A stretch of 64,000 nucleotides of DNA, taken from contig NC_135560.1 of NCBI RefSeq assembly GCF_964340395.1, forward strand, positions 17,843,098 through 17,907,097, in the 5' to 3' direction. Under the pieces are notes generated by a model. The model was not told the DNA's origin, ran no database searches, and saw only the letters and a program-made list of their open reading frames with translations. The DNA comes from Glandiceps talaboti (Eukaryota > Hemichordata > Enteropneusta > Spengelidae). A program made the translations under genes and the position numbers. This document shows, in pieces, positions 1,310 through 58,446 of the stretch. Position 1 is the stretch's first letter; each line of letters begins with the position of its first letter.

Positions 1310-2871
1310 GGGACCGGACAGAATTTACGGCAGGGGGGGGGCCTGGGGAGAAATTATCTCTGACTTGTTTTTTTTCCTGGCCCCCCCATCCACTGTGACC
1401 AAAATTTCACAGCCCCCCCTTTCAAAAGTATAAAAATTTCATGGCCCCCCCCCCAAAAAAAAAAAGAAAAGAAAAAAGTGCACAATATCCTGCCCCCTAC
1501 AATAACTAAAAAGAGTACAATTTTTTTTGTTACTGTAGCACAACTGTAATATTTCTTTTGGTACTACTATTATGTTACTATTTCAGCCCAAACAACTTAG
1601 TAGTTGTAGAGGAAGTTTTTTAGAAAACAAAACAAAATAAAACATTTTGACCATACATGTAATCATACACATGTGGTATAATCTTGTGTATTTCCCAACT
1701 AGACACCATAAGTAGTCATCACTAATAAATACCAAGGCATTTGATGTGGTGGTTTTAACTGTCATTCACTGATACATACACAGAAACACAGACACAGAGT
1801 TAAACACACATTCACATGCGTGATTTGTGAAAAACTGTAGTGGGGACATTTGTGGGGAGTATAAAGAACATCACATCACCTACATAGTGTATTCAAATAT
1901 CTATTTATACTCATAACACAATAACTATCTAATGTCAGACATTTGTGATGTCATGAAGTGCTAGCAAACTAAGGATTTTATGCAGCTTTCAGTTTCCTAC
2001 ACCAAATGCATTACCAATACACCTGTAAATGTAAGACATTTGTGACTTCATGTCACTGATGAAAAAACACTTAACACCACGCAGACATCTAAATGCTTTA
2101 CAATATTTAGTACAGATAGATGCATTTGATGATGCTGAGGAGGGAAATAGTTTAATTTCACTGGTTTTAGATAGAAAGAAAGACAAGTCTTGCCTCATAT
2201 CTTCAGACTCTAGTGAGTCTGAGAGTGAAACTCAAGAATAGTGTCAAGGAAAGAAATAAAACACCTATCTAAATTAATCTGGCCAGACGTTTTTGTATTT
2301 ACATTTTTCACCAAAAGGTCACTTTTTAAACACATAAATTACAGGAACTATGCTAGAATATTACCGTATATATATATATTAGGACCTGTAATGTATCCTT
2401 GATGGTAATTACACACTGAACCTGTTTCCACAGTGCTAAAATGTATGTATGTATGTATGTATGTATGTATGTATGTATGTATGTATGTATGTATGTATGT
2501 ATGTATGTATACATATGTGTGTGTGTGTGTGTGTGTGTGTGAACAACTTGGAGTATATAAGAGTAATTAAGGGTGTATCAAATTAATCTTGAGTAGTGTG
2601 TTTATGCGTCACTAAATACAAACGTACACACTTCCATTTTAATACATAAATGAAAGTGTAGACATTCAATATTAAAGGCGATATCAAGTGCTATCTCATG
2701 CAATGCTAAATTTTCTAACATATTAAATTTTTTCAATGACAAAATATTTCGCGGCCCCCCCTTTCAAACCATGAGAATTTTCATGGCCCCCCCTTCAAGC
2801 CTCCCATTTTTTTCATGGCCCCCCCAATTTCTCCCCAGGCCCCCCCTCTGCCGTAAATTCTGTCCGGTCCC
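1310..2871. mobile_element. Inverted-repeat DNA element with TTA target duplication (PIF/Harbinger-like, non-autonomous)
   Basis: The ends are inverted repeats of about 45 bp starting GGGACCGGACAGAATTTACG on the left, with the matching complement ending at 2871. The trinucleotide TTA flanks both sides (1307-1309 and 2872-2874), the target duplication typical of PIF/Harbinger elements. Just inside each end are repeated C-runs of the form CATGGCCCCCCC, possibly transposase-binding subterminal repeats. The interior holds an (ATGT)n run followed by (GT)n at about 2441-2540. No transposase or Myb-like frame is visible; the largest frames are 60-70 codons. Superfamily assignment rests only on duplication length and sequence. 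Confidence 0.75.
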
Positions 2872-2874
2872 TTA

Positions 2875-5257
2875 GTCTATCAGCTAGCCCTCAGATGTTC
2901 TTCCGATAAAATACGACACACAGCCGAACAACGCTATCGAGGATGGAACATCCTAGGTCTAGCGAATGTCATCAGGATATAAATAACTGCCAATCAGAGA
3001 ACCGTATTAGCGACAAGCACAAACAGAGGACAATAGCTAAATTTTCATGCATATTCATCTTAAGGAGGGGCTTGTAAAAATAACCACCAATGCGTTAACT
3101 AAAATGTGTGAATGACAACGTCTACACACTCATCAAACACAATTACCATAAACTGATAAGACATAGTAATGACATAAATGTGTTTGTCAACACCTGCATG
3201 CAGAGATTGAAGATATTAAAGTATATATATGCATATATGGCCAAACCCACCGCTTATCGTAATCTCAATGGAATGTCCGGTCTGAAAAGATATTCGCTAG
3301 ACTGTTCGGGCAAGCCCTCACATGCGAACTTCGTTCGCTTATTGTTATAGCATCGAAAGAAAGCCCGAACGTCTAGCAGCAAGACTAAGTCTGGCTAGGC
3401 GTGGTGGAAAATACAGACAGGTCGATACGGTTTTTAATGCCGCCGTAGGCAATAAAAACAGAGAACGACAAGAAGAAGAAAAACGACCTGCACACAAACA
3501 AGAATGTCTTCACTGGAATATGGGGACGTATTCTTGAGTTGAGCAGAATAGAACGCACCTTTCAAAACCAGTAGAAAAGAAGCACACGATACACAGACTA
3601 GTCGGAAGTTCTTCTTCAGAAAACGCGTGTTCTCGTTTTTGGCTGGTTACAAACAAACAGCACTGCACAGCACAGCCCAGTACAACACAAAAAGAACTGC
3701 AAACGAAAAGCACCAGCAAAATATAATACTGGCAACAGGTTCAGTACAATTCGGGAAACAGGTAACGCAAAATACCGGATAAAAAAGGTTAGTCGTGGAG
3801 GTCAGCAGAGCTCAGAAAAAAAACCCCACACGTCCCACACGTTGTGTTGTCAACACTCGTCTCGGTTACGCGCGCCACCTCGATGCGCATGCATGCAAAA
3901 GTTATTGGCTCAAAAGTGAACGTTTTGCCCCAGCCTAAATATAAGGTCAACTGTAGATGGCAGTACATCACCATCATCATCATCATCATCATCATCATCC
4001 AAATTTAGTCATCCAGACTATTGCCGTTGAGGGCTTCAACCCCTTCCGAATCTGAACGCGTTAACAATAGTTTGCATAGTTTTTAAACTGTTTATACATG
4101 TACACCCCTGGTTGAATACATGAAGGCCAAATCACAGTCACTTGTGAGCTAAGTAATACAATATTCAAGGAGCTAATATTCTATTCAAGGATGGTCATAA
4201 TATGAAATAATATGTATTTTAATACGAGTATTGGAAAACATGTGTTTTAGTAAAAAGAACGTAGATTTGACCAAGGCAAACTTGGATTTGAACAACAAAA
4301 ATGTACGTTTTACAGAAAGAAAATAGGTCTATGGAACATGAATGGAAGTTATACAACAAGAAAATAGTTTTTTAAAAGAATATTGCAACTATGGTCACTT
4401 TGTCTTCATTTTTACCTTTTTTATACCTCATCAAACGCTCACGAAGTAATGTGACCAACTCTTATCTTGGGGTTGAAGTAATTTAAAAAAATCTACAGTA
4501 AAAATAAAATTCTGACCTACCTACCCTATTTTCTGATGTCAGAATCCGACATTTTTTTTTTCATTTTGCCTCATGTTTCATAGAACTGCTCACACCATAT
4601 TGACTGTATTGATGTTGGAGAGTGCCCTCAGTGTTGATTTTGCAGTGTTATTTTGTTTGTGTTAGAAAAGCAAAAAAGTCGACCTTTTCGCCAAAACTGT
4701 GGGTACAAGTTTGCTTTATCTTTACCTGTCACTATCCAAAATCACACTGACATACAAAAACAAAAACAACAAGCGACCTATCGGTCAGAATAGCTCCGCT
4801 GTTTTTTTTTAAATTTAATTTTTTATTTTGGTGACATGTAGAAGTGGTTCAGGTCTTCACTATGCAGTTTTGTTTTAGCGATGCAATAAAGTGGTTAGTG
4901 GTTTCATATGATGTCTCACTATAAAACACATTTTACACAGAAGTTGGTAATGTATTGTACTTTTATACCATAGTCACCATTTTATAACAAAAATCTACTG
5001 TTATGAAAAATTGCACAAAATCTCAGAAAAAAATGACTGGGAAATGCACACAAGAAAAAGAAAAAAAGAGGATTTTGAGGTTGGCTATAAATAATTCCAG
5101 TGTCTTACAGCTGTAACCCTGGAAAATTTTAATGATGAATGAAATAAACTAGGGATCTAAAATAATTTTGAGGCAATTTGAATTTCAATTTTCTAACAAA
5201 TTTACAAAGTCAACAACATTCAACTTGTACTAGTTGTGGTAGATATATATAGGGAAG
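2875..5257. other. Intergenic stretch without a supported gene
   Basis: Mostly AT-rich sequence with a slightly more CpG-containing patch near 2,880-3,950. Short frames here (up to about 80 codons) show no recognisable motif. An (ATC)n run lies at 3970-4000. Together with 961-1306 this is the least AT-rich part of the left flank; a donor-like AAG|GTAAGT sits at 1281/1282. A non-coding first exon or promoter is possible but not shown. Confidence 0.5.
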
Positions 5258-5258
5258 A

Positions 5259-5812
5259 AATGTATTAATCACCATCTTAGTTTCCGTACGGCGACAATCT
5301 CAAGTACCCGGAAGAGAGTCATTCTCAGCCATACGTTACAGTGGTAACACTCGTTCATGTTCGGTTACCTTTCACAAAGAAAACACAACGAAATGGTTGA
5401 AATGATCTCTTTTTTTATTTCTTTTCATCACAACAACAAAATCTGCGTGATTGATCAAAAGTGTTGTAAACTAAACCAGAAATAGAATTATCGGACTGGC
5501 TAAACTTCCCGATGAACTGGAGTAAGGTCCTACTACTTCCAAGTAAGCCTCGACAGTACTATAGTACGTGAGAAAATCGTCTCAAACTAGCGATACAACT
5601 TTCAAAATATAACTTGACATGTCTTCATTTGTTAGAGTTATACAATTCAAGACGGGTTTTCACTCGAAAACAACAATTCTGTGAATAATGACACTCTGAA
5701 CGCAGCGATTTCTCGGACGATGTTACCACTGTAACGTATGGCTGACAACGACTTGCTTCCGGGTTAGTCCCTCGTGCATACGGGTGGATTGTCGGCGATT
5801 AATACATACATC
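5259..5812. mobile_element. Inverted-repeat element (MITE or foldback), about 550 bp
   Basis: Two imperfect inverted arms of about 100 bp face each other. The left arm runs from TGTATTAATC through CCCGGAAG to GCCATACGTTACAGTGGTAA near 5350. The right arm, about 5715-5812, is its reverse complement with indels. The best-conserved block is the innermost GCCATACGTTACAGTGGTAA, identical in both arms. The interior (about 5360-5715) has no coding frame. I could not fix a target duplication, so the superfamily is open. Confidence 0.65.
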
Positions 5813-5844
5813 GTCTGATATTTTAATTCACAGTGTTTCTTGTG

Positions 5845-5875
5845 ACCGGCGCCTGTCAGCAGACTCTGCCATTTT
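5845..5875. mobile_element. Relict fragment of the long-TIR element family
   Basis: About 30 bases around CGGCGCCTGTCAGCAGACTC, followed by a T-run in the opposite sense, match a distinctive subterminal block in both large elements at 52,952-57,569. No further similarity to that family is visible on either side, so this is either a degraded remnant or a captured fragment. Confidence 0.45.
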
Positions 5876-7082
5876 TTTCATCATTCCATTGTATTTAAAC
5901 CTTGTACTTGACATTTCGCAATATTTATAATTCTCAACAAAATACCTCAACATGCCTCACTTCGCTCGTACTCAAAGCAGCCCCGCGCGGTATGATCACT
6001 GACACTGATGACATGATGAGAGAGAACCTTTTCGGATTTACATGTAAAACGGGGAAAGATACGCAAAACATAATGCAAAGTCTGAAGCCAAATTAAAGTT
6101 GTAATTATTTTAATTATTTTTACTTGCCAAATATTTGCATTTTGGAAAGGCAAGACACGTTCATGTCGTTTAACTTTACATGTGAACTGTCGGCCATAAC
6201 TTCAACCGCATGTCTGCCATGCCCTTCCTTACGCAAGTTGTCTGAATTCTGGTTCACTGTCATTCCAAATTGCACGACAATATAGAATTAACCACAAGTT
6301 ACATGTTATCTGAAAACATCACACTTTTATAGTGGGTCTGAAGTGTGATTTTAGTGAGTACCAAGAACGTCCTGTGTTGATACTCAAGATACTTGCTGTG
6401 GAAAATCGCTCGGTCAAATGAGGTCACCTTCAGCTTCTGGTCGAATCAGGATAGAGTATGCAAATGAGGATGTTGCGGACTGATTTGGAGTTTACAACCC
6501 TGTTTCGAACAAACGCTTGTCATTTGGGCGCCCAATGCGTAGAATTATGACTATAGCACATATTACATTGCTTGTTTGACGTCAATAGTGTCTTTTGAAA
6601 AGTGGCAGTTTACTTAAAGTCTCGTCGACTGATTTCCAATATGGCGTCGGTCATTATGCTCATTAACATATTCATTTTTTTTTCAAATTACAAAAAAAAA
6701 ATCATAAAAAATAAAAATGAGGATGTGCTGACTTGAAATTAACAAATCTGAGTAAGCTACCCCCTGCGCATCAACACGCCAGATATCAAAGCAATCTAAT
6801 AAGAGGTTTTCAAGGAGTTGATGAAAATGACATTTTATGAAAAAAAATCATAAAAAATTGAAAATGGCACAGATCAACTTGGCATGAACAAATCTGAATA
6901 GCCTCCCCCCAGGGAACATGCACACCAAATATCGAAGAATTCCGACTGTCACTTCCGGAGTAGATAGTAAAAATATAAAAGTTTGACGGACACCTATGAT
7001 TCACTCTACTCTCTATACCTCAATACCCACCTATACCTAAAGCTACGCTTTCAGCTTTCGCTGACAGCGGAGCTAAAAATGC

Positions 7083-7141
<59 letters not shown>

Positions 7142-8108
7142 CACATACAAGCACAGACACAATTCTATTTCTCTGATTTTTATTGTTTTGTACATGGAAA
7201 TGCCAATTGCAGAGACATATTATTCATGCATATTTTGTGACAGCTGCTTATATGTGATTCTTGGTAATATTTTTTGCAAAATTGTTATCATAATATAAAA
7301 TAACTAATAATATATCACCAATGACAGTACAGGGCATGGTAATAAACTGTACAAACAATTGCTTTGTGTAATTCTATTACACCACACACCTTAAAGATGT
7401 GTACCACTGTTATTCAATTATTTGCTGCCATTACTCTGTCCAAAATTACAAAAAAACAGCATACTGTTAATGTACACAAATCATAGATATGAAACATTTC
7501 ATTTTTCAAAAATAAGTTGAAAGATAATATTTTGATCAATAGAATGACTTGTCAGATACAAAAAGATAAACCACTGAAGTCCAGATATTGCAGAGTTTGC
7601 TCAGACTTAAATACTAGTATGTGCACTCTGCCCTTTGGTCAGACTAGGGAGATGTGATCAGGGTGTGGGGTAGTCTAGATGTGGTAGTTATTTAGCTTAG
7701 GAAAGATAACCAGATGTACTGACATATAAAAAGCAAAAACTCTTGTTTACACCAAATTCTGTTGAATGGTATATCAAAATTTAGTCTCACCCCTCAGGAT
7801 GGCTCTCCCCAAACACTGTACACTTGTTCACCAACAACCTTGGCCACCAAATCCACACCTCGGCAGTATATAAGAATTGAAAGCCAATGTCAGATTTGGA
7901 TCAAAATTTGGGTATAGAAAAACAGTTGTCTGACAGAGATATAGAAAAAAAGTTAGTTCTGAAGTAAAGAATGATTGTATGGCTCCACTGATCAAATTGC
8001 TAATAACTCAAGACCATATGGGATTCATAATGGTGTTTATAAACCTAAAAATAGGAAATGTTAGTAGAGCAAAAGATCTTTACAATGGATAACACTGAAG
8101 TAAACCAG
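5876..8108. other. Intergenic sequence with duplication and microsatellite
   Basis: No gene is supported. A roughly 150-bp segment is tandemly duplicated with divergence at about 6690-6835 and 6838-6990; each copy has a run of A residues around ATCATAAAAAAT, then AACAAATCTGA and a C-rich block. A (CATATA)n microsatellite lies at about 7081-7148. The sequence ATGGCGTCGG near 6642 resembles a translation start context but opens only a short low-complexity frame. Confidence 0.5.
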
Positions 8109-32165: not shown

Positions 32166-34825
32166 CCTTCAAAACGCTCGCAAAGGAGGTCCTTTGCTCG
32201 TCCACGAGGTTGTGGGCTGCTAGCTGTGGTTGTCCAACGTCGACAAGTGTATCTCGTTCTCGCACTTCACGAGATTACATTGGAACCTCTAGGTTAGTGG
32301 AGATGTGTTCACCGATACGGTACAAAACAAAATATCTCCCTCTATAATATTAACATCAATCTGTTTGAATATAATAGACTGTTTTTCAATTTTCTTTGTC
32401 AAAATTACTGTGGCTTGTAATATTTACATGACAACGACATTACACTGAGAAATCTGAAAACGTTTACATGCATCGAAACCCGGGAGATTACATAATTTCA
32501 AAGAAGAATATTCTCCACAAACCTAAATGGTCTCGAAGAAATATTTCCTGGTGATGGACTGTTGTTTTCCTGGGGCCAGGTATTCTTGCCCAACGGGTGT
32601 GATCAACATTTGCCTCTGAATGTCCTCATTAGATTTTAAAACCCGACCGTGGAATATTGAGAATAGGTAAGTTATCTGGATTGCAACGTTCATCATACTA
32701 TGATACTGTCACCCTCACAGTATCAACTATCAGTGAGTGTATGGATCCCGGGGTATGGATGCACACGAATGATGTTAACCAAACCAATCAATTGGTAACG
32801 TTGCATTGTTATTGTTTGAACGAGTCGTGGTCGAAGTAGAGAGCGGTGTCACATAAACAACAAAGTTACATTTATCACCAGTGCTGTTAGGCGCATCTCT
32901 CTGATCATCCAAGAAATCAGAGTGTGTTTGTGTTGTTGTGGTGGTACAAAACTTCAAAAGTGATGTTTTGTTATGGAAACATCTATTTTACATGTAAAAA
33001 TATCACAACATGGAGATAGACATGTATATCATGTATACACCTCCAGTATTAAACCATACTAACTGTACAGAGCTAATAGAGGGTAAAACACATTAGTCTA
33101 GAGACTTGATCATCATTGGTTTTCAAATCATTTGACAAGTATCTGGGCTATTCACATAGAAGATCTATATACAAAGAAAAAAATACATCAGATGTATTTC
33201 ACTTTTGAATTTGTCAATGAGTAGACCCCCTCCCACCCCACCCCATACCTCTGTGCCCCCAATCCCTCAAGTTGACATTTTACCCTTTTTCAGAGTGACT
33301 GCTACCGATATTTTGACATTGATATTCCATTTTATTTTGTAGTTTCATTTATATTGTTATTTGTGACATAGTTGTGTAGATTGTAGGTCAATAAATATAT
33401 TGGTAACTTTTTTTGTGTGTTTCAGCAACTGCAAAAACAACAATCATTTTGGGCACCGATTATTGAACATTTTTTTTAAGCTGGTATTTCCATTTTTAAC
33501 ATTTTTACTGTATCTTGTGATCAGTATGTTTAGCTTTCACAATCTGATTAAAAACTGATGTAGTGAATGTGGCTCAATTTCTTTTATTTAGTCCTGTCTG
33601 TTTTCAATTTTGTTGTACTGGGAGTGAGTGCCTTGGGTATTAGCCTGACAATGCCATAGTTGTTTCCACTAATGTAACATGCTCCAACTTGGAGTAATGA
33701 TTGGTTACATAAACAGACCAACAACTGGTATCTTTCAGACTACTTGGGTATTCACCTCATCAGATTTTATTCAGATTGGCTCTCCGAACATGTTAGTATT
33801 GTACCAGGCTGGTAATGTCAACTGAAGTCTAAGCTATGTAAACAGTAAACTATACACATCAACAAATTGAAATGCTTTGTCAGGTATACATTGATCTGTT
33901 AAGTGACCTCAAGGAGTGTTTGCTCATTCACACAGTACAGTCTAGGAGTTGGTGAAGATGTTTGATTTGGGGGTTCTACTTTCTGTCAAATAGATTAGTG
34001 GATGCAATTGCATGCTTTCTTCTTTACATCGATCCCTGTCTGACTCAGCGGCCCAAAGATAATTACATAAATGCCAGATCATATGACATGTTATACTACA
34101 TGCATACATGTTGTATGTATGTTTACAAAGTCACTACACAATGTTTTTTGTATCTTCCAGTATGACTTTTGTTGTAATGACTTGCACAAGCAAACTTTCT
34201 AAACTGTAGTTTGTGTAAATCATTACAAGTCATGCAGAAGACTCAAATACATTTTATGGCCGAATTGAGTTTTGACACCTGGACCAACTGTAATTTCATA
34301 GGTATAGTTGGATGTATTTAGTGATCTCAGTAACACCTCCAAATTGTTGGGTTAGGTGAAGGTTAATCTAATTAGGGAAACTTCATCATGACAGCAGCAG
34401 TACAAGACAACAGACTGAAGGCAATGATATAAAATACAAACTATCTGACAATTCATTTTCCGCTTGAATACAATCTTTTGGTAATATCTCATAGTGATAC
34501 AATCTTTTGGTAATATTTCATAGTGAACTGTTTTGGAGTAATTTTTTTCTGTCAGTTATAAATTTAAGTTAAATTAGTATGATAAGTTATAATAATGTAG
34601 CCACAATGATATTTATGAAGTCGTGTTCTTCCCAAAAAATCCCAAGAAGGAAACATTGATTTCAATATTTCATTTTAGATATCAGTAACTCTGTTGATCT
34701 CACAGCTTTTTTTTTTTTTTTTGCTTTTTTTTTTTTAAATTCAAATTACAGGATGAAAATGATGTGCTAAATCTTTTTGGATATACATATGATTGCTGAG
34801 GTTAGCAGCCAAGAATTGTCTGAAG
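32166..34825. promoter_or_regulatory. Region between MRPL34 and ABHD8 start codons
   Basis: The part nearest MRPL34 (32,166-32,830) is richer in CpG and contains the palindromic stretch TCTCGTTCTCGCACTTCACG with AGA following. A donor-like AATAG|GTAAGT at 32666/32667 and an acceptor-like ATTACAG|G at 34750/34751 would fit a non-coding first exon of ABHD8, with a ~2.1-kb intron in the 5' UTR. That is inference only. From 32,840 to 34,740 I see only AT-rich sequence, including a short direct duplication around ATACAATCTTTTGGTAATAT at 34,466-34,525. Confidence 0.45.
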
Positions 34826-34911
34826 ATGAGTCGGAACAGCCGAGGAGACACCTCCTGTGGATGTGTTGGAGGGAGAACACACCGTGTTGCTCCACAGCCA
34901 GGAAAATATGA
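34789..34911 (+). other. Upstream ORF overlapping the ABHD8 start
   Basis: A 40-codon frame begins at ATG 34789, 37 bases before the chosen ABHD8 ATG, in another frame, and ends inside ABHD8 exon 1. If the transcript includes it, it would reduce initiation at ABHD8. No conserved peptide is recognised; it may be chance. Confidence 0.3.
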
Positions 34912-37900
34912 CAGTTATGAAATCCTAGAAATCCGTCCAAAACGTAGGATACGTGTACAACATATCAAACCTAGAACTTCTCAAAAACCTGCATCTTCAG
35001 CTGAAAATGATCCAGCAAGGCCAGTAGAAATCCAAAATGGCTCAAGTGCAAAATCAAATGAAATAAAAACAAACGCAGTCAATTCTACACAAAGAAGAGA
35101 AGACACAGCAAGTAATTCAGGGTCAACAAGTAATGAAAATCGTATTGAATACCAACGAGAGAAAACACCAATGAGTATCAGAGAGATCAAAATTTCAGAA
35201 GAAATAAAAAACAGAGTAAACAATAACAATACTGTGATATTTTTCTTTCATGGAGTCGGGGGCTCAGCAGATGTATGGAAGGCACAATTGAGATATTTTT
35301 CTAACCACGGTTATGAAGTGGTTGCTCCAGACCTGCTGGGTCATGGTTTTAGTAGCACACCCAGGAAAGAATCTGCCTACTCATTCTTTGAACTATACAG
35401 GGACCAACTTGCTGTGTTTGATAAGTACTGTACAGAGAAGAATATTCTAGTCGGCCATTCATATGGGTAAGTTACAAGTAAAATATCATTAAATTGCTAA
35501 AAATTTGAAAATTGGGAGAAATTCTTATAACAGTATTAATACTGTATATAGACATGTTATATTTAGACTAGATTGGACTAGTTCTTTTAAGTTTTGATAT
35601 AGTTGTTTCCCAAGAAATCCAGTGAAGACTGACCCTCATGAGTTAAGTGTTAATACAGGAGGAAATTAGAATACAAGGGAAAACCTGTATTGTTCAGTAG
35701 AGTCAAACTGAATAACTTTAATACACCATAGCAAGCCCAGATTAGGGCTCAAACCCACCACAGGGGACGAGGCCAGTAATGTAATTTACCAATGTGCCAC
35801 TGACAACCCTAATAAGACATTGTACCTCACTGCAAACACTTTATCAACATCACTTTCTATCAAAATAAGATCAAACAAGCAAGTTCAAATGTTACCAAAT
35901 TGATTCACAGTGAGGTACAATGTTTTAATGTACATGCTTGTGAGTATGAACCTGTGTGGGTGTACATATGCATCAGTACATTTTGTATGCCCTCTAAGGC
36001 CACTTTGACATATCAATAATCACTGACAGTATACAGGAATGTGACACACCAGAATTCAGTGTTCCCCTATCATTATTCCTCACTATGTGATGACTCAAGA
36101 AAGCCCAGTTTTTATCATTTTGACCTAAAATGAAAACTGTGTTTCATTCAGGCACACTGATTTGTTTGTTTGGTTTCTACCAGTGTTTAGAATCCGATTA
36201 TGTAAGTCATTACAACTGTTTTTGTGGGAGACACAAAAAGTATTGTGTAGCCAGGCTAATTAATGATCTTGTGGTATTAAACCTTTTGATGCATAACTTA
36301 CAGCCTGTTTTATATTCGTGTTCATTGGCTCTGATACAGCCACACAGAAACCAATAATAAACTGGACATTCTACACTTTGAAGATAGCAAGTTCGTAATT
36401 TCTTAAATTTTTTTCCAACTGAAATAAACTGCAACTAGATTCAGGTATGCAGACACCAATGTTTTGACATCTGCACAGTGGCATGTTAGCTCATTTCATT
36501 TAGACAAATGTTGCAAGAAACTATTCATCCAATGTTGCTATCTTAAAGTGTAGCCTCTGCAGTTTCTGTGTGGTTGTACCAAACAGAACCAGTGACCACT
36601 AACATGAAATGGACTGTAAATTAAATATCATGCTTGCAAATGCAGACTTATTAGTAAATGTGTGTATGGTTTTGAAAACAATTTATAATACCCAACATTT
36701 ATCAACCCTGATTAAAATGAACTACACATGAATAATAAATGTATGCTACCAGACTGCAATGGCTACCTTTCATCTGTATTGTTCATGACACAAGCCGCCA
36801 ATAATTACTTAGAATTTGATAGAATTATGTACAATACGTTGTATGATAAAAATGCATGTATGCACACTCCTTTTCAGAACTACATTTAATGACATCTACT
36901 CAATTAAGTATTTTATTTTGGGTCCTTTCATTAATTTCTACAAGATGTGTACACTTTACAATGAATTCTGCATGTACGTTTACATTGCTGGTATTTGATA
37001 ATTAGAAGGATTTTACATATTCATTCAAGAATGGTTACTTGATTGGCAAGGACTGAACAAACATGAATACTGCAGAGTCAGTTTTCAGGCTGTTAAAACT
37101 GTAGTTGAATTTTCACAGTGCTCAGGCAATACCACAATTATTATTTTCTGCCCCTGGGCTAACACTTCAGAAAATTTTGTTAAGGAGACATTTCCTGTCA
37201 ACAGGACAGTTTTTACACAGTGAAACTGTCCACAAACGCGTTAACCATCAATGAAACTGTCCTCTATTTTGTTAACCATTTCAATGACACTGTCTGCAAT
37301 CTTGTTAACTGTTACAATGCCATTGTCAGTCAACTCATAAGAACACATGCTGCCACACCTACCACTTTTGTTTTCACTTGTGCACTTGTTCTCCAGTGAA
37401 GAGTGCATAAAAAAAATTGTCTATACAATGTACCTTGCCCAGGTAAAAGACTTTTACCCCAAAAGCGTTCTGTTCAATCCGCTAAATAGACCGTCCATAT
37501 AACTTTTAGTTATACATTACACTCTCTCTCTATATATATATACAGGGCATCCTTTTGTACCAGGCTAGCTACAGAAAGAAGAACCAGTATAAAGAAACTT
37601 GTATTGATAAGTGGAGGTGCCCCTTTACCTTTGAAGCCAACTACTTGCCAAGTATTTTGTCTGCCAGCAGCAATACTCAAATGTTGTCATCCGTGTTTGG
37701 ATTATTATTTTCATCGGTAAGTTATTTTGTGTAAACAAAAGCAATGGGCCCTTGCATGTAAGAGGGTGCTAAAGCAGCTCAGTAGAGTACATATTTACAG
37801 TAACTTGCAAAAAGTGAACTGTTTATACTTGTCCCTTTTCTACAGCATATTTTTTTACTTTTTAAAAATTTGTGATAGTACTCATAAGTTTATATAGCAT

Positions 37901-45330: not shown

Positions 45331-48300
45331 TTGTTTCCTGATATCAGCAGGTCTTATTTGTCTTTCTCCTTCTACTAAGAATATCTTGAATGCTTTATTC
45401 AAGATATGTACACCCATTTTTCTCTTCTTTGATGCCGTCCATGTTGCGGCTATACCATAATAGTCTCCTTTCTTAGCATTGGTAAGTCTGGACAGACCTG
45501 TGAAAAGTCAAAACAATAACAGTGTTTGTAGTCATAAAGATCACCCTTTTCTGCTTCTTATTATGACATCATGAAAAAAATTGTTTCGTTGATCAGTTAA
45601 AACAAGGAAAAAGAAAAAAATGTATAACTTTGTGTGTACATGTTGATATCGCTTTCAGTTCATAATCATTCTTTATTGACAATTTGGATGATTAAAAGCC
45701 AATTAAAGTTCCAAAATGAACCTTTTGATTTTATCAAAAATCTTTACTTGTGGTTTTGCCATCTTTAATCCTGCCACAGAGGGTATTATTTCTGTTTAAT
45801 TTGTAGCCACTTTCCATAAATATCGAGTTGGTTGGGTCATTAGACACATAGAAATGAATAGAGCCACCCTAACAGTGCTTCTACCCAATCATGAGCCAAG
45901 CAAAATAGTATGACATGCAGCAACGGTTACAGGTAACTTCCATATACAAAACAGACCATAACTAAGTCTAATACATGTACAGTACATATAAAATAATTAT
46001 TAAGATAAACAAAAGGTGAAACAGTAATTTGAAAACAGGGGAAAAGAGTAACTGAAAAGGCTTACCTAATGTTTCCACCATACAGGCTTCCCTTGTGTAT
46101 GCTTCTACTGGGATAACACTTTGAAAACAATGCAAGGACACAACTCCTAGATCAAGATTCCAAATATCCAGAATGTGTTGAACTTTTTTACTCGGCTGGA
46201 TGGACAAAGATATCAACAAATAATAACAACTTCAATGAGTAAACTTTGTAGAGATTGGGATGTTTATTCATAAAGGAGACACTCACTATCGACCAATGTG
46301 CCCTCTAAGAAAATTTGACGCGCCACTGACACACACAATTTCTAGTGACGCACCAAAATTTGGTGTTCCCCTATCTCTTACTATGTGGTGACTCACAAGA
46401 AATGCCAGTTTGTCTCATTTTGACTCACAACGACAAAATTTGGCTATCATTAGATTTAGAGGGCACACTGCTAGCGACCTTCAGTTGCCTTTACAGTTAG
46501 CAGAATAGCCTGAGGGGTCTAGCAGTAAGCCTACTCATTACCGTAGTATTCTCTCTTGGCTGGATATTATCATACACAGAGGCTAATTTGCATACAATTT
46601 ACATATATATTTTGTATTTTGCATAATTATACTATGTTAAAATGGCCTGGGGAGATCACTGTTACCCCTTGTATGCTATGGTATGTGCAATACAGGAAGA
46701 ATTGACACAATACTAGAATCAATGGCCTTGTCAGTAGGATTGTCCAAACCAAACCTTTCACTCATAGTGGCAAAAGCCTCACGTTATGAGAATTCTTTGA
46801 ATGAACAAAGAAAAATATAAGATATCAAAATATAATCATCCTTGCACAAGCTTAATGTAAGAAAAATAATGGGGGGGGGGGATAATAGTGGTCACTGAAT
46901 GTTTTAACTCATATTTCTAGCACCATAGAATCAATGACATAGACACACGTTGTCATCAAATGACCAGAGTACATATGTCCTGTTTTTCTGTTCAAATACA
47001 ACTTGACATACATTTCTTATAAAGAGCATTCAAATTTTCTCATTTATGTATAGTGAAATACTTACCCTTAATCTGGGATTATGAATCTGTTCCAAACCCT
47101 CATAGAAATGGGCATAGGGTCTAGCTCTCTTCCCTTTCCCCACATAGAAGATAGCCGAGACGAACACCTTGAATGCATCCATGTCATTCATTCCATGGTG
47201 ATGTCTGACAGGAAGATTTCTTGTCACTCTTGGATCCAGAAGCAAATAATTAAATGAAGATTTCAGTGTTCCTTCTCTCCACTTTCTCTGTGGATCTGGC
47301 TGGTCAAATTGAGCTGCTATTTTCATCTCTTCCTCTTGCATATCAAGTGTTAAGTTTTGACACAGGTATTGGTGTAGCTCGTATGTAAAACCTAGGTAAG
47401 GATTATAGAGGAAGAGACACCAAATTTACTTACAAAATTAAAATTTTCTATCATACAAGAACCAACAAATGTTTCAAATTCTCTGATTAATGATGTGATG
47501 GCTTGAAATTAATCTCATTTTTTTCTCACACATTCTGCAGAATTATCAACACAGCAAACACATATATCATTTTAGGACTGACAAGACTTATTGCTGTATT
47601 CATATATTGTTTGTGGATGACAGCAGAAAACAGTTTTAAATATTTTAAATTACTGGTTTCAGACTTGTATGGGTTTTTTTTGAATTCATGATAAATTTTA
47701 GTATGTTATGAGTTATACAACATTTAAACATTCTGCAGAAAAAAATCTTGCATGTAACTACAAGCATGCCTTACAGCTTTTGACTTAGGCCCCCCAAAAA
47801 ATATATCTGGTTCTGGTCAGCGCGCGCGTGCCCTGAATACCCTTGCGTCGATCCTTTTTTTCCGATAATTTTTGCTTTCCCGTTCCTTATTTATTCCTGG
47901 TACATTTGTATCAGGAGAACAAGCAGCTGAAATCTACCCTACATGCCAAGATTGCTTAAATACAAAGCCTAAACTGCTTTGAAGAAAAAGAAGTTTTTCG
48001 AGAGATAAATATGATAGAACGGAGTATGTAAAGTGTCAAAAAAAATATTTACTAATTTGCAAAAAAAAAAAAAAAAAAAATATTAGAAAAAAAAAAAATC
48101 TGCGTCGTCGCACCACTTTAGAAAGTTTACCCTGACCAGAACCAGATATATATTTTTTTGGCCTTATGAGGTTTATTATTTCATTGATATTTCTTGTGGA
48201 TGACTGAAGAAAACATTGTGATGTGTCTACAGGTGTGAGAATAGTACATGATTTCTTCATTCTTACCATTTTTACAATACACAGACTCACAACTCACCTG

Positions 48301-51300
48301 ATTTCGCATCATCAGCATCTGTAGTTAGTTTTGGTATACTTGGGTCTTTCTTCAGTTTATTCAGTCTATCAAGATACACTTTTCTTGTAGTATTTGTGAC
48401 TGGACCCGGTGACTCACCAAGACTATTCAACTCACTTTGTATCTCCTTGTTAGACATAGTGTTAACCACATCAGGCACAGATTCTGTGTCTGCATCCTCA
48501 CATGCACTATCATCAGTTTGACACTGTTTCCAGTCATATATAATTGTCTCATCACTACCCGTACTATGATTCAGTGAGGAGTTGGCAGATCCACCGGATA
48601 CACTACTATTACAAGACGATGACGGACATCGCCTCTCAATCAGTGCAGCTCCTACATCGGTGTCGGTGTATATATACTCCACTGTTTGTGAGCTGTCATA
48701 GCTGTCAGGTGTCTGAGTGTCAGAACTTGGATTGGATTCACTTCTAACTGGGACTGTCAGCTCTGCAAACCTATCATTGTTTTCAGACAAAGACTCAGTA
48801 CTTGTGTTATCAGATGTAAGGAAGTCAGAAACATGATGTAGATTGCTATATCTCTTTCTCCTCTTACTAGTTGCCAATCTTGTGGAATACCTATGGAGTG
48901 GTGGTTTTCTATCATGACATATATTAAGAGTTTCATCACTGTTGTCCAAAAGAAATGTATCTGGAAGAGTATTTACTCCTGTGTCTTTCACAAAATGTTG
49001 AGATTCTTGTAGATTTGAAGACTGTGTTTGATTCTCTTCAAGTATAAGTGTATCTTGGCAACCTGTATTTTCAGTATGAATATGATTTTGTTGCTTGTTC
49101 TCTGTACCAGTGAGGGATTCACTCTGGTTGTCGTCTAATATCAATGTATCTGGACAAGATGGATTCTCAATGAGAACATGGTTCTGTGGCTTGTTCTGTG
49201 AACAAGTGAGGGATTCGCTCTGGTTCTCGTCTAAAACCAGTGTATCTGGACAAGCTGTCTTATGACTAAACCTACATGACTGTACAGTTTGACTATCTCT
49301 ATCCATGTCAGCATCCAGACAAAACCTATCTAAAGATTCACCATCTGATAAAATCAAAGTGTCATCTAGTTGATGTACTTTATGCTCTGTACTCAATTCT
49401 TCTGCAGCTGAATAAAACTCTTCACTTTTACTACTATCAGAATTATTAAACTTAGAAGACACAGTGACATCATCACCACAACTAGCCACACTTTCAACTG
49501 TTACTACATTTTTCATCTGTACCTCATCATCCTCAAATGCTTCATCTTCATCTTCTTCTTCAGTGATTGATCCACAGAACAACACTGTTTTATCCAGTAA
49601 CCTACTGTCGTCATCTTCACTAGAACTTGTAGATGATTTCACATAAAGACATGGATGATCAGGTGATGTCACATCCAAACCTTGACTAAAATCACCCGAT
49701 AACGTCCTTGCATACATACCTACCGACATGTTCATGCCAGTATCCCCAATCTCTTGATTGAGACTATGTGAAGATGAATCATGTAAATTTGAACCATTGT
49801 TTTCATTGGCACAACTGGTACTACCACTTTCACACAATGAATGAATCTCTAAGTTCTCATCATTAGAATGAGACAGTTCATTTGATGGATTGTCAACTAT
49901 ATCTTTAAGACTGTTATCTGAAATATTTCCTAAATCAAAATCAATTTCATGATCAGAATTACAGTGATCAAGTTCACTGGTAATTTTATATCCCATGTCA
50001 CTGTACCTTCTCTGTAAGCCATTGTCTCTACTATCCATGCTGACATGACCTATTGATGACCTGTCACTCAAGTCAGAGCTTAGCCTTGGTACTCCAGGTC
50101 TGGGACTACCTCTACCAACAATGTATGTGGCTGTCGAAATGTTCAGATTTCCATCACTGCTCTGTTGACTGTTGCACATTCCCAAATCTAGTTCACTATC
50201 TGTGAAATCACTACCCTGTGTTCCATTTGAAAATCGCTTTGTGAGTGAACTAGATAACAGACTGAGTCTTTTTGTAAAGTTAAACGCAATCTCTTCATCA
50301 ATATCAGCATAGTCACTCCATTGGTTGGTAAATGAGCTTGCATTGGTGGACACTGTTCCAAGTGAACATGATGATAAAGGTCTCTGATTGGTGGCCGAGT
50401 CCATGGAACATGAAGATGGAGGTCTGTGACTGGTGGTTGAGTCCATGGAACATGAAGATGGAGGTCTCTGATTGGTTGGAGAGTAACTGTATTCCAACAT
50501 CATTGGACTGTTGTGATTTGACGATAACGTATTGGGTGGTGGATGAGTATCCCAAGTTAGGTTTCTCAACAGTCGACTATCACTTTCAGGAGATTCCTGA
50601 GAGTTATAGCTAGAAACTATGGAAAAACAAGAAACAATAACGTTAATGAAGCAAGGTATAGTCATTCAATTTCACAAGACTTCAAAGATAGTGAACATGT
50701 AGTAGGTAATCAAATTTACAGATGAAGTTTATGGGTGTTGGTGATTTTGTTAACTTTCATAGTTGAGGTACTGTAGATATCAAAACAGGAAAGACAAAGC
50801 AGTCATTCATGTGTCATGAAACGGATCACAGGAGTTACAAACATACATTTATACTGTGTGATGTCTCTAACAAACACATGTACACATACAAAACATACTC
50901 ATTCAGGCATGCCACAGACTCATGTATGCACAGACATACACACATGCATGCATGCATGCGTGTGTGTACGTGCACAAACACACACACAGACCGATACACA
51001 CAGACCGATACACACACAACACATACCAGGTACTAGATATAAACATTCTTAATACTTTCAAAATAATACTGGATTATTACTCCAGTTACAGCTGGGCAAG
51101 GTTTAAAACTGACAAACTGCTATCCTTTCACAGGAATCTGGTGCTCAGTTTGAAGAAAACAGGATAATATGGTTCACTTACCAGGTAGAAGGGAATATCT
51201 TGGTGTTAGACTTTCCTGTGAGTCTATATCAGTATCCCATTCTTTGTATTCCATTAACAAATCAATGCAGTCTTTATCGCCATATTCTTCGGCTAACTTG

Positions 51301-54300
51301 TACGCATTGTTGCCATCTTCATCCCTGATGAATGGGTCCCCACCATTGTATAGGAGAAGTTGTAGTGCATCATATTTACCCCACATTGCAGCTACTTGTA
51401 GTGGAGTCAAACCCTCACAAGACCTTGGGAAAGATGTAGAATTAAATAGATTAAGTATACATTCAGGTGCCTTACATTTTGTGTTTAAGGCCAAGGTTTC
51501 AATCTCATGTTCTTTAGTGTTATCTTATCAGTTAAGCCATAGGGATCGAATTTTTCAATAGCTCTGCCAGACAACTCAGTTTTCACACCTCATGACCTCA
51601 CTTCTACCTCAGGACTGAGGTTGTGCAAATATGCAACAGCGAACCAACTGACAATAGGCATGAAACTGTATTCAAGCTAGGGAGTTATAGAGTCAGAAAT
51701 AGGAATAGGTTGGATGCCCCTATATAAAGTTGATTTGTATCATCTACCACAAAAAACCACAATGACTTTTGCATCAAGATAGGTTGTGATGTAACATTTG
51801 CATGTAGGACTATCAAAAGATAGGGAGTCAATAATCAATTGATTGCCAGGAAATGAGCTTGTTAGGTATGTCTATTTTTTTATCTGTTTATGTTACATGT
51901 ATTAAAGTTTGGTATAGAGTTGAGCATGTACAGTAAGACATTGACAGTGTTTTGTTGTTGTTCTGTTCTTTCACTACAGCACATTCTTATTTATTGACTT
52001 TTTACATTGTTTTTTGGCAGACCTGTAATATTTCCCGCCAAGATAAATAAAATATTTCATACTCGTATATTTGCATCATATGTAGATTCAGAACAAAAGT
52101 TATGTACCTGGTCCTATCTGCATGTCAAAATGGGTTGAAGACACAGTTTGCTTTACATAGATTTATAGACTGTCTGGAGCTCTCCTGAAAAAAGGGGTGC
52201 TGTTATACATAAATTTGGATAAACTCTTCCTTACCTGACATTTGGATTGCCATTGTACTGTAGCATCAACTTGACATACTCCACGGAATCAGCTCCAACT
52301 GCTATATGGAATGGACTTACACCATCTGGAAGTGGGGTGTTGGGACTCGCACCTTGTGATACCAATAACTGACTGAGACTATAACAAATAGAATCACAAC
52401 ATATCAGTGTTTCTGTTGAGGCAGGTTAAGCAAAATCTACCTGATTTTCTCTCTCTATCAATGGTTTAAACTTTCCTACTTGGATTTTAGTCCTAATCTT
52501 AATCTTATTCATTATTTCTTATAATGCACATTACGTTAAAAATAATCACAATGCGCTGTACAACTGACAGGAACAAAAAAACATAAAAGACAACAAAACA
52601 ACCTCAAGGTATAAGGTTTTAAGGGCAGTAAGTAGGTAAAATTTACCCACACAAGATTCCCTACCAGTGTTTTTAAGGGTGGCAGTAAATAAATGCCAAA
52701 AAACTATCATTATTTCACATACTTAACATCATACAACTGAAATGGCATGAGTTTACGTACATATCGAAATTATAACAGGTCATGATGAGAGTCCTCAAAT
52801 CAACTCTTGTTTCTATGACTTACATTCAAAGAATCACTTGTGTAATGTCATTATCATGATGCTAAAAAAATACAAGAAGGTAAGATCTTGGATCTACTTT
52901 TCTATAAAAATGGTCTGAACGAAACAAAAAGTTAAATTCTCAGCTGTATGGTATGGGAAGCCGTTCAGGCCAAAAATATTTTTTTATTTTAGCTGTAGTG
53001 TTTTATATTTTTCGTACTTACAAACTAATTTTAACCGTTTATGTACTTTTATTCCATGTTCACATTATTTTATTTGAAATAAGTTTGCATTTATTTGAGA
53101 ATATTGTTCTATTTTTCGTCAAACCAGAATTATTTTAAGGATTATATATAATTGAAAGTCAAAATATATTTTTTGTTAAAAGTTTTTTTTTTTTTTTTTT
53201 TAATTTGAAAAAAAAAATTTCAACTTTTTTTTTTTTTTTCTTCCCAACTTTTTTTTTTTGGCCGAGTCTGCTGACAGGCGCCGGTGCAGAGCACGTCGTG
53301 CTCGTACCCGGCGCCTGTCACGAGTACGAGGCGTGACCTTTGACATCCATTACGACGTGTTCCGGCGACGAATGTGAAGCTACCATCATATTCATATTCA
53401 TCTTCACGTTCAAAAGTTGACCTCTACGCTCAATGTGAATATGATGATAGCTTCACACGTTCATCATCAGATTCGAAGTCTCCCAAATGGGTACGAACAT
53501 GCATTCTGCAAATCACATATTCTTCATTGACAGGTTGAAATCATGTGATTGTAATTAATTTTCATTTGACTTGCGTGGATTTGCATGCTCTCTTTTTATT
53601 TTTGCCAGAGTATCCAATTTGCACCATGAACTATTGTTGTCATGGACCATATTTTGTTTACAATCAATTGTGTTGCCCCTCCCCTATCAAGGGAACTATA
53701 TACATTGTGATAATTGTGGTCTTGACAACACTATTATGACAATTTGTGTAAATTTCACCAGTGTAAGTGTTAAGTAGGGTTTCAAAGATAGTGGCACTGC
53801 GGGAAATCAAAACAATCCATGACACTAAGTGGCCAAGTGATATCACCTTGTCACTTGATGTCACAGATTCAAAACACACCCATCCAGGCCGTATTTTATT
53901 ACATTACTAATATAGGTGTTTTGTACACCCATATGATATACTGATATTTAATTTTCAAAGATATGGGAAAGGCATACTAAACATCCAAATTAGTTTTTTA
54001 TCTGACAACAATACTTTGATACTCTGGCAAAAATAAAAATAGAGCATGAAAATCCACGCAAATCAGGGGAAAGTAATTACAATCACATGATTTCAACATG
54101 TCAATTAAGGATATGTGATTTGCCGAACGCGTGTTCGTACCCATTCGGAAGACTTCGAATCTTACTGATGATGAACGTGTGAAGCTATCGTCATATATTC
54201 ACATTGAGCGTGGAGGTCAACTTTTGAAAGTGAAGATGAATATGAATATGATGATAGCTTCACACTCGTGTTTTGGCGTCAAATACACGTTCTTATTACC

Positions 54301-54594
54301 TTCGAAATTGATCGCTCAAACATTATATCAGATCTCAAAACTGTTAATTTACGTGTGATAGTATCTATTTTTTCCAACAACCGCGACTTCAGCCGCGTAC
54401 GATCCATGTGCAACGGGTAAAGGTATTTCCAAACGGTCAGTCAGGTACTTCTAGTACGAGCGCATATGTTGACGTCGACCTACTGTATTACATATGTAGA
54501 CGTGTTGTTCTCAACTTTTCATGATATATGCATGTGTACTCAGAACACCAAGAGAATGTATACTACAATGTACGATGAAGTAAACTGAATCTTT

Positions 54595-54667
<73 letters not shown>

Positions 54668-56852
54668 TGATGATGATGATGATGATAACAAGGCGATAAA
54701 AGCTGGTTTAGGTTGATATGTAATACAGCAGGTCGACGTCAACATGTGCACTCGCACAAGAAGTAGTACCTGACTGACCCATTGGAAATACGCGTTCGTT
54801 TTCCTCGCATTTTTGTTCCTAAAGCTGTTTTGCTGACGCTCACATTATAGTGTACCATCTTATTTCAATTCTGGTCAGTTTCACAATATGAATGTAATTG
54901 TTATTGATGCAACAAACTTTAGTTGTAAGTTTTAGATTAACTACCATTACCCTTTGCACATGGATCGTGTCCTACGTACGTAATACATCATACATGCGGT
55001 CATAACCTTAACGTGACGGTGTACACATGTATGTATGCTGAAGTCGCGGTTGTTGGAAAAAACAGATACTATCACACGTAAATTAACAGTTTTGAGATCT
55101 AATATAATGTTTGAGCGACCAATTTCGAAGGTAATGAGAAGGTGTATTTGACGCCGAAACACGTCCTAATGGATGTCGAAGGACATGCCTGTCACGAGCA
55201 CGACGTACTCGTGACAGGCGCTGGTCATCAGACTCGGCCAAAAAAAAAAAGTTGGGAAGGAAAAAAAAAAAAGTTGAAATTTTTTTTTTTAAATTAAAAA
55301 AATAAAATAAAAAACTTTAACAAAAAATATATTTTGACTTTCAATTATATATAATCCTTAAAATAATTCTGGTTTGACGAAAAATAAAACAATATTCTCA
55401 AATAAATGCAAACTTATTTCAATTAAAATAATGTGAACATGGAATAAAAGTACATAAACTGTTAAAATTAGTTTGTAAGTACGAAAAATATAAAATACTA
55501 TAGCAAAAATAAAAAAATACTTTTGGCCTGAACGGCTTCCCATAGTATGGGGGGGGGGGGGGGGAGTGTGAGGTTTTATAATAAATATGTTGATTTTTTA
55601 AAACATGATTTCATGTTTTCATATCATGGCACAATGAGAGTAAAAAACGTTACTAAGTTACTGGTGGTCTCAGACCACTACAGGGTTTTTTCTTTTAGTG
55701 GTCTGAGTGGTGGTGCAACCATCGTGTAGGGTCTATGGTGCAACATAATACAGTAGCCCTTTGTGAGCACCATTTTACATGTAAATTGTAATCCAATTAT
55801 ACCTGTAGACAATAGTCAAATATTTGCATCTGATTTGACAATTCAATTTGTTGACTTCAGTAATTTAAAGTATACAAACATCCCAGCCACACTACATTAC
55901 CAGATTCATCATTCACACAAGAACACCATGCACCATAAATTCGTATAGGTCTCCTTGAGCACAGAAGTATATGGGAAGCCGTTCAGGCCAAAAATATTTT
56001 TTTATTTTAGCTATAGTATTTTATATTTTTCGTACTTACAAACTAATTTTAACCGTTTATGTACTTTTATTCTATGGTTACATTATTTTAATTGAAATAA
56101 GTTTGCATTTATTTGAGAATATTGTTTTACTTTTCGTCAAACCAGAATTTTTTTAAGGATTATATATAATTGAAAGTCAAAATATATTTTTGGTTAAAGT
56201 TTTTTATTTTATTTTTTAAATTATTAAAAAAAAATTTTCAACTTTTTTTTTTTCCTTCCCAACTTTTTTTTTTTTGGCCGAGTCTGCTGACAGGCGCCGG
56301 TGCAGAGCACGTTATGCTCGTACCAGGCGCCTGTCACGAGTACGAGGCGTGACCTTTGACATCGCGTTCTTATTACCTTCGAAATTGATCGCTCAAACAT
56401 TATATCAGATCTCAAAACTGTTAATTGACGTGTGATAGTATCTGTTTTTTCCAACAACCGCGACTTCAGCTAGCCGCGTACGATCCATGTGTACACCGTC
56501 ACGTTAAGGTTATCGACCGCATGTATGATGTATTACATGATGTAGTACGTAGGACACGATCCATGTGCAAAGGGTAAAGGTAGTTAATCTAAAACAACTA
56601 AAGTTTGTTGCATCAATAACAATTACATTCATTATTGTGAAACTGACCAGAATTGAAATAAGACGGTACACTATACTGTGAGCGTGAGCAAAACAGCTTT
56701 AGGAACAAAAACTTGAGGAAAAGCGAACGCGTATTTCCAATGGGTCAGTCAGGTACTACTTCTTGTACGAGCGCACATATTGACATCGACCTGCTGTATT
56801 ACATATCAACCTAAACCAGCTTTTATCGCCTTGTTATCATCATCATCATCAT

Positions 56853-56903
<51 letters not shown>

Positions 56904-58446
56904 AAAGATTCAGTTTACTTCATCGTACATTGTAGTATACATATTCTCTCGGTGTTCTGAGTACACATGCATATATCATGAAAAGTTGAGAACAACACGT
57001 CTACATATGTAATACAGCAGGTCGACGTCAACATGTGCGCTCGTACTAGAAGTACCTGACTGTCCCATTGGAAATACCTTTACCCGTTGCACATGGATCG
57101 TACGCGGCTGAAGTCGCGGTTGTTGGAAAAAACAGATACTATCACACGTCAATTAACAGTTTTGAGATCTGATATAATGTTTGAGCGATCAATTTCGAAG
57201 GTAATAAGAACGCGATGTCAAAGGTCACGCCTCGTACTCGTGACAGGCGCCTGGTACGAGCATGACGTGCTCTGCACCGGCGCCTGTCAGCAGACTCGGC
57301 CAAAAAAAAAAAAAGTTGGGAAGGAAAAAAAAGTTGAAACTTTAACAAAAAATATATTTTGACTTTCAATTATATATAATCCTTAAAAAAATTCTGGTTT
57401 GACGAAAAGTAAAACAATATTCTCAAATAAATGCAAACTTATTTCAATTAAAATAATGTAACCATGGAATAAAAGTACATAAACGGTTAAAATTAGTTTG
57501 TAAGTACGAAAAATATAAAATACTATAGCTAAAATAAAAAAATATTTTTGGCCTGAACGGCTTCCCATAGAAGTACATATAATATAACTTACATTACATT
57601 ACATTACTACTTTTTAGACACATATTTGAAACAAATGTGTTTGTTTGTGGGATTTTATGGTAGTTGTTCCAGATTAGATTAGATTGCATTGCTGTACAGC
57701 TTATCTTTTCGTTTATTTGGTTGTAATCTTTTTGTAACGTCCCTTTTTGGTAATTCCCATGGGATAGTGCATGGCAGTATCACTATCACTTCCACATGTG
57801 CCACCATACACATGATACACCCCGATACAAGTCATGTAAAAGTAATTACAAATTACGTGGCTGTGCACTGTAAACAAACACAGCCACGGAACAACATTAC
57901 ATGTAAAATGTAACTCTACACTCGAGTTTAATATAAGTACCATAACTGTTTTCACGACTACCATGGTACATGTGGTCAGGGTAATACTCTCCCAGACTCG
58001 ACTCATTGACACCTCATTCATCAACCATGTCTGGGTGAGGAGAGAGAGTTATTGGTCCAATGGAAATGTCATGACAAGACTAATAATTGTCTGTGACGGT
58101 TAAAATGGGCTTTTGAATGTATGTCAAGCTAAATAGTTCATATATGCTATATCTACGTGATAGGAGGGGATACGGTAACGCATGGTTCTACTCAGAAGTC
58201 TCTCTACTATTACTAGTATTAGTGAAAAGTTAGATGGATTAAAAGTCGTTGCTTTCAGACTCTGGACGTACGTGAGACCATGGAAGTATAATGGGTGTAC
58301 TTCCATGGTGAGACCGACGCGACGACGAAGAACTTCAAGAAGTCACTGCACTGCAGAGACTGTCGACTAAAATATGTTTACACCTACCTATAATCGTCCC
58401 TCTGAATTGATTTACACAATTCTCTAGCGAGAGCTAATCGAGACAT
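45328..58446 (-). CDS. ANKLE1: ANKLE1, ankyrin/LEM/GIY-YIG endonuclease (1129 aa, 7 coding exons)
   Basis: Structure-specific nuclease of the LEM-3/ANKLE1 family, which cleaves branched or bridging DNA (family knowledge). Coding exons: 58446-58388, 52378-52235, 51423-51182, 50616-48298, 47391-47066, 46195-46066 and 45497-45328, stop TAA; all are GT-AG and in frame. Residues 1-20 start MSRLALARELCKSIQRDDY. Ankyrin repeats follow at about 21-140 (DGVSPFHIAVGADS, GLTPLQVAAMWGKYDALQ). A Ser/Asp/Glu-rich region at about 150-865 is coded almost wholly by one 2.3-kb exon. The LEM domain lies at about 871-905 (LGESPGPVTNTTRKVYLDRL). The GIY-YIG domain spans about 965-1075: SSFNYLLLDPR, IFYVGKGKRARPYAH with Tyr 1004 and Arg 1010/1012, and EAYTREACM, which carries the likely metal-binding Glu. 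The tail is GVHILNKAFKIFL. Human ANKLE1 is about 615 aa; the excess is the central region. Intron 1 (6 kb) is filled by transposons. It is divergent from GBA. Confidence 0.95.
46294..46470. mobile_element. hAT-like MITE, 177 bp, 8-bp target duplication
   Basis: The ends CAATGTGCCCTC and GAGGGCACACTG are flanked by CTATCGAC (46286-46293) and CTAGCGAC (46471-46478), a 7/8 match. It belongs to the same family as 42,946-43,116 and lies in ANKLE1 intron 6, just upstream of exon 6. Confidence 0.85.
47788..48163. mobile_element. 376-bp MITE with TTA target duplication
   Basis: Inverted ends of about 33 bp: GGCCCCCCAAAAAATATATC continuing TGGTTCTGGTCAG on the left, and the complement with indels on the right, ending GGCC. 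TTA flanks both sides (47785-47787 and 48164-48166). The interior includes an alternating GCGCGCGCG run and A-rich tracts. It lies in ANKLE1 intron 4. Confidence 0.72.
52952..55544. mobile_element. Long-TIR DNA transposon, copy A (2593 bp, 6-bp target duplication)
   Basis: The ends begin TATGGGAAGCCGTTCAGGCC, with arms of several hundred bases that are near-perfect inverted repeats. The arms include a CGTACTTACAAACTAATTTT segment, T- and A-runs and a GACAGGCGCCGG block. GTATGG flanks both sides (52946-52951 and 55545-55550). The core has a composite trinucleotide run (CAA)n(CGA)n(TGA)n at about 54,596-54,688. Without the nested insertion at 53,368-54,269 the element would be about 1.68 kb, close to copy B. 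The 61-codon frame at each end comes from the TIR itself and no transposase is seen. A 6-bp duplication is reported for Polinton, IS3EU and Dada types among others; I do not assign it. Confidence 0.88.
53368..54269. mobile_element. Nested 902-bp element with long TIRs (MULE-like)
   Basis: Inserted in the left arm of copy A. TIRs of about 245 bp begin ACGAATGTGAAGCT on the left and mirror that sequence on the right; the left arm ends about 53,612 and the right begins about 54,021. Each TIR holds its own smaller inverted repeat around AAGCTATCATCATATTCA. Flanks are GTTCCGGCG (53359-53367) and GTTTTGGCG (54270-54278), a ~9-bp duplication with two differences. The uninterrupted site GTTTCGGCG is seen in the opposite arm of copy A. 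Nine bases with long TIRs resembles Mutator-like elements. No coding frame is seen. Confidence 0.75.
55970..57569. mobile_element. Long-TIR DNA transposon, copy B (1600 bp, 6-bp target duplication)
   Basis: Same ends and arms as copy A. GAAGTA flanks both sides exactly (55964-55969 and 57570-57575). The core with the trinucleotide runs ((ATC)n then (TTG)n at about 56,836-56,903) lies in the opposite orientation to the core of copy A relative to the flanks. Non-coding, inside ANKLE1 intron 1. The 419 bases between the two copies (55,551-55,969) are unique and start with a G-run. Confidence 0.9.

Follow-up and report, generated by a model that had tools for sequence, protein, structure and literature searches.

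Oppositely oriented cores of two near-palindromic transposons in Glandiceps talaboti point to opposite insertions of one asymmetric element

The window analyzed here, a 64,000-nucleotide stretch of the genome of the hemichordate Glandiceps talaboti (NC_135560.1, contig C13 in our set), contains two related transposons, E1 and E2. Exactly four copies of their 20-bp end, TATGGGAAGCCGTTCAGGCC, are present in the window, two on each strand, forming two inverted pairs; no further match was found in the window at up to three mismatches, and 100 shuffles yielded none. E1 occupies positions 52952-55544 (2593 bp) between two copies of GTATGG (52946-52951 and 55545-55550). E2 occupies positions 55970-57569 (1600 bp) between two copies of GAAGTA (55964-55969 and 57570-57575). 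With exact shared ends and perfect 6-bp target duplications, the boundaries of both transposons are certain, as an earlier sequence-only reading of the window had held. The two elements lie 425 bp apart.

Each element is a near-palindrome, in which inverted arms of ~400-520 bp surround a core with trinucleotide runs; the identity between the arms, gaps being present, is ~88% in E1 and 91% in E2. In E2, the left arm (55970-56491, plus strand, its limit taken from the inverted repeat) is followed by a core with an (ATC)n(GTT)n run (56492-57089, plus strand), matches to which were found elsewhere in the genome, and by the right arm (57090-57569, minus strand), a 91% inverted copy, with gaps, of 55970-56491. 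Neither element contains a reading frame of 150 aa or longer, in agreement with the earlier view that both are non-autonomous. The core on the plus strand is reversed between E1 and E2. The earlier description of internal segments pointing in opposite directions is thus correct, and the accompanying match between the arms in either direction is expected, because the element is nearly palindromic.

End-to-end alignment of the E1 reverse complement with E2 gave 1486 matches and 56 mismatches (96.4% ungapped identity), with 1109 gap columns that mainly reflect an insertion nested in E1; forward E1 gave 1126 matches, 62 mismatches and 1817 gap columns. This alignment rejects the idea that two unrelated sequences were inserted as cores between similar arms. 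An unrelated insertion of 902 bp is indeed nested in E1, but the E2 core aligns throughout with the reverse-complemented E1 core, and a 287-base piece of the core has nearly full matches genome-wide at the 40 scored of 296 candidates, leaving this explanation with almost no probability.

The genome searched comprised 590 Mb in 47 contigs. At up to two mismatches, the 20-bp end was found 207 times in forward and 187 times in reverse orientation, 394 ends in total, while a backwards control gave 0. Two batches of loci were then analyzed: 29 paired-end stretches (L031-L059, among 32) drawn from the first contigs, and 14 stretches (L076-L089) around core matches. Among 40 copies for which both ends were available, E1 and E2 included, 33 had identical 6-bp flanks, comprising 32 different sequences; A or T occupied positions 2 and 5 of the duplication in 83% of cases (both strands pooled). 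The remaining seven copies lacked identical flanks (L033 and L051, with one mismatch each, L046, L059, L084, L043 and L050). Hence the search for full-length elements that the sequence-only reading had proposed revealed a multi-copy family, in which the 6-bp duplication generally holds.

That reading also expected a near 1:1 ratio of core orientations if cores flip repeatedly. The 40 nearly full core matches divide into 25 on the plus and 15 on the minus strand. Both orientations are thus represented, but the ratio is uninformative as a test for flipping, because random insertion orientation yields the same ratio.

The two arms of the element can be told apart by an inner GC-rich block, which defines types A and B. 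The earliest typing, based on matches to a 55-base marker, called both sides positive in most copies and was useless. With longer markers, 20 of 25 core-bearing copies were scored AB or BA when L051 was used as reference; L049, L042 and L055 as references each gave 19 of 25. None of the 25 was contradictory, and copies that carry the nested insertion gave ambiguous results. The final typing, by a short marker, covered 35 core-bearing copies. It excludes five of 31 first-round elements without a recognised core (L038, L043, L047, L050 and L052) and five of 14 second-round stretches without one or both ends (L082, L085, L086, L088 and L089); L060-L062 are partial.

Of the 35 copies, 28 combine an A arm with a B arm. 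Every one of these has a core that runs from B to A: core plus goes with arms BA in 17 copies, and core minus with arms AB in 11. E1, with its A-type arm on the left, its B-type arm on the right and a minus core relative to that of E2, follows this rule. Two arms of the same type were seen in four copies (AA in E2; BB in L033, L046 and L079), and three (L034, L039 and L078) could not be fully typed. Cruder typing had scored L076, L078 and L079 as BB; the short marker changed L076 to AB, gave no call for L078 and left L079 as BB. Among the excluded stretches, cruder typing gave BA with core plus for L082, AB with core minus for L086 (by 1 bit), and B type on both sides for L085, L088 and L089. 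A sister copy of E1, L044, lies on the opposite strand (99.3% ungapped identity, 18 mismatches in 2628 columns).

Flipped cores would break the B-to-A rule. Since arm type matches core direction without exception in these 28 copies, opposite cores mark insertion of the whole element in opposite orientation, and we conclude that E1 and E2 are very probably opposite insertions of one asymmetric element with a B-to-A core polarity. Two considerations weigh against this conclusion. The 35 typed copies are not a random sample, having been taken from the first contigs and then from the best core matches. In addition, when the four arms of E1 and E2 are compared on their own, none of the ten sites at which they divide two against two (nine outer, one inner) groups the left arm of E1 with the right arm of E2, as plain opposite insertion predicts. 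Nine of the ten pair the arms within an element and one shows a flip-like grouping; four fall in T/C-rich runs that are difficult to align reliably. This pattern is compatible with opposite insertion only if an E2 arm has been rewritten. Opposite insertion is therefore not shown in the arms by the E1/E2 pair alone; it is shown by the other copies together with the conversion boundary in E2.

Indeed, the arms of E2 depart from expectation. Its plus-oriented core predicts a B-type left arm, whereas the observed left arm is A-type up to GATCCATGTG (~56491), with B-side core sequence beyond; the switch was positioned from the aligned A and B junctions of 12 copies. Both arms of E2 are A-type, and they differ at 9 of 356 aligned positions, compared with 33 of 373 for the arms of E1. 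Because the B-side arm of E2 is A-type, it matches the left arm of E1 although the two cores are opposed. This same arm accounts for the flip that the sequence-only reading perceived, E1 being a normal copy.

The inversion of the core within inserted elements by recombination between the arms, as proposed in that reading, now appears very improbable. The arms are long and alike, and one of the ten two-against-two sites is flip-like, although it lies in a T/C run of uncertain alignment. E2 taken alone, with its two A arms, could represent a flip followed by conversion, but this takes two events where one suffices. With no flipped core among 28 copies with distinguishable arms, the flipped share should be below roughly 10% of such copies. 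In an invertible element, core direction would be independent of arm identity; here, a single polarity was found. The arms have exchanged sequence, though by one-way copying (E2, L033 and L046) and not by core inversion.

For E2, we infer that the B-side arm was, on balance probably, overwritten from the A arm by arm-to-arm conversion in place. It is possible but rather unlikely that, with the same history of opposite insertion, this arm was instead rebuilt while the element was transposing or being repaired, by copying through a hairpin or a template switch. The altered stretch extends over the entire arm and ends at CATGTG, a short match common to both sides, as such copying might leave it. 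Yet hairpin copying during repair would look identical to conversion, nothing separates the two, and in L033 and L046 copying ran in the reverse direction, from B onto the A side. The latter two copies have a core deletion in common, and their arm copying may be one event. Over the outer 225 bp, arms of the same side in different copies differed on average by 0.036, arms of opposite sides by 0.041 and the paired arms of a single copy by 0.040. These values cover 51 of 53 arms, the poorly aligning right arm of L034 and one arm from a copy without a core being excluded; the observed difference was reached in one of 500 label swaps. So slight a separation of A and B is consistent with repeated exchange, or with constraint on the ends.

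The ends also bear on the placement of the family. Two reports describe IS3EU elements as having 6-bp target duplications and TA..TA ends; for a fungal set, TAYGG..CCRTA ends and inverted repeats exceeding 30 bp are given (PMC10045372, PMC12730594). The present family resembles IS3EU (with GingerRoot) in all these respects: the 6-bp duplication is found in 33 of 40 copies, both window copies end in TATGGG..CCCATA, the family has 394 ends in the genome, and the inverted repeats far exceed 30 bp. It differs in that the inverted arms extend to ~400-520 bp and no transposase gene was seen. We therefore place the family, judged from ends and duplications alone, provisionally in the IS3EU superfamily, to which it likely belongs. 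The sequence-only reading could not place it; a provisional home can now be offered, and its report that no transposase is present agrees with our results. Literature searches on IS3EU with sea star or echinoderm, and on GingerRoot, returned nothing specific to the present family.

An autonomous IS3EU member with these ends should encode a DDD/E transposase akin to those of IS3 and IS481. Counting against the placement, no coding relative with these ends emerged from the loci covered. Among 34 matches to the rve_3 profile in the genome, 12 were fetched; none had the 20-bp end nearby (up to five mismatches), and by eye their frame ends look like Ty3/Gypsy pol. On the inner sides of 30 end-centred loci, scanned for frames above 90 aa, the longest was 219 aa (four of the 30 contain N), and the three loci read closely (L008, L010 and L029) revealed no transposase-like frame. 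N letters occur in 7 of 62 loci, including two long copies. In L010, a reverse-transcriptase frame lies next to an end, and L008 has repetitive frames only. We infer that the transposase is supplied elsewhere. Some superfamilies other than IS3EU also produce 6-bp duplications, Dada among them, and the orientation story would be the same if the mobilising enzyme came from one of these or from an undescribed superfamily. The failure to recover a transposase from the 12 fetched matches and 30 loci leaves room for such an enzyme, but TATGGG..CCCATA ends combined with a 6-bp duplication are the combination reported for IS3EU, and we consider another source improbable.

With its long inverted arms and non-coding middle, the family is an ordinary non-autonomous foldback family. 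Tetris, a foldback element of Drosophila virilis, has long modular inverted arms and a variable non-coding middle, lacks a transposase and shows hints of arm homogenisation within one element (PMC4079207). The two families have the long inverted arms, non-coding middle, missing transposase and hints of arm homogenisation in common, whereas Tetris, according to the same text, is placed in Mutator and generates duplications of 8-10 bp, in contrast to the 6 bp and IS3EU-like ends found here. Foldback elements are said there to come from different lineages, mostly Mutator, with exceptions (PMC4079207). For a foldback element, IS3EU would be a less common affiliation, not a new kind; a literature search on foldback with 6-bp duplication gave no match.

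The following sequence of events can be proposed. A transposase from elsewhere would cut at the TATGGG..CCCATA ends, and the element, asymmetrical in that it has an A arm, a B arm and a core running from B to A, would insert through a 6-bp staggered cut in either orientation. Insertion in either orientation would explain why the cores of E1 and E2 point opposite ways. In E2, the A arm would have been copied over the B-side arm, most likely by arm-to-arm gene conversion. The full combination, an IS3EU-type foldback family that lies outside Mutator, with arms rewritten in both directions and a core that does not invert, we regard as doubtful. If true, recombination between the arms would be resolved almost only as non-crossover, or inverted copies would be lost, and arm identity would be a natural recorder of hairpin-driven conversion. 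In near-palindromic transposons, opposite cores should not be read as inversion before the arms are told apart; besides a provisional IS3EU home for a sizeable family, the present data provide a small example of arm-to-arm copying without inversion.

Self-comparison of E1 revealed a 902-bp inverted-repeat insertion (53368-54269), with arms of its own of ~250 bp, nested in the A arm; E1 is longer than E2 mainly because of it. It is flanked by an imperfect 9-bp duplication, GTTCCGGCG on the left (53359-53367), with two mismatches to GTTTTGGCG on the right (54270-54278); in L032 and L045 the duplication has one mismatch. The B arm has an empty, uninterrupted site, GTTTCGGCG. Identical nested junctions were found in seven other fetched copies (L032, L037, L044, L045, L058, L059 and L076), with a shortened interior in L058. 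By similarity, the nested segment is also present in L034 and L038, and L039 has a rearranged part of it; L034 had been scored as lacking it in the junction test, its shortened arm falling outside the search range, and L038 was outside the test. Probably, a single nested insertion was later carried along by the copies, and it is now part of a mobile subfamily. Target duplications of 9-10 bp are a habit of Mutator. The long inverted arms and imperfect 9-bp duplication are a tentative lead toward Mutator-like elements; the ends of the nested insertion read ACGARTG.

Several other copies have features of their own. L047 (229 bp) and L052 (760 bp) are short and core-less, with perfect 6-bp duplications, and are apparently miniature derivatives that still moved. 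L041, L048, L053 and L056 adjoin further arm fragments or other copies, at distances of tens of bases in the case of L053 and L056; together with the E1/E2 spacing, this gives the impression that new insertions land close to or inside older copies. The L050 locus (1-7249) is itself a large palindrome, with 83-bp element-end fragments on its flanks and 6-bp flanks, CTGGTC and GACCAG, that are mutual reverse complements. It contains a reverse transcriptase (Pfam RVT_1), a Dam-methylase match below the Pfam cut-off and a frame that resembles a tyrosine recombinase by eye, without a Pfam match.

Elsewhere in the window, a frame with an alpha/beta-hydrolase fold lies at 34793-35470 on the plus strand and a frame with a LEM domain at 48290-50665 on the minus strand. 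The two may recall the vertebrate ABHD8-ANKLE1 neighbourhood.

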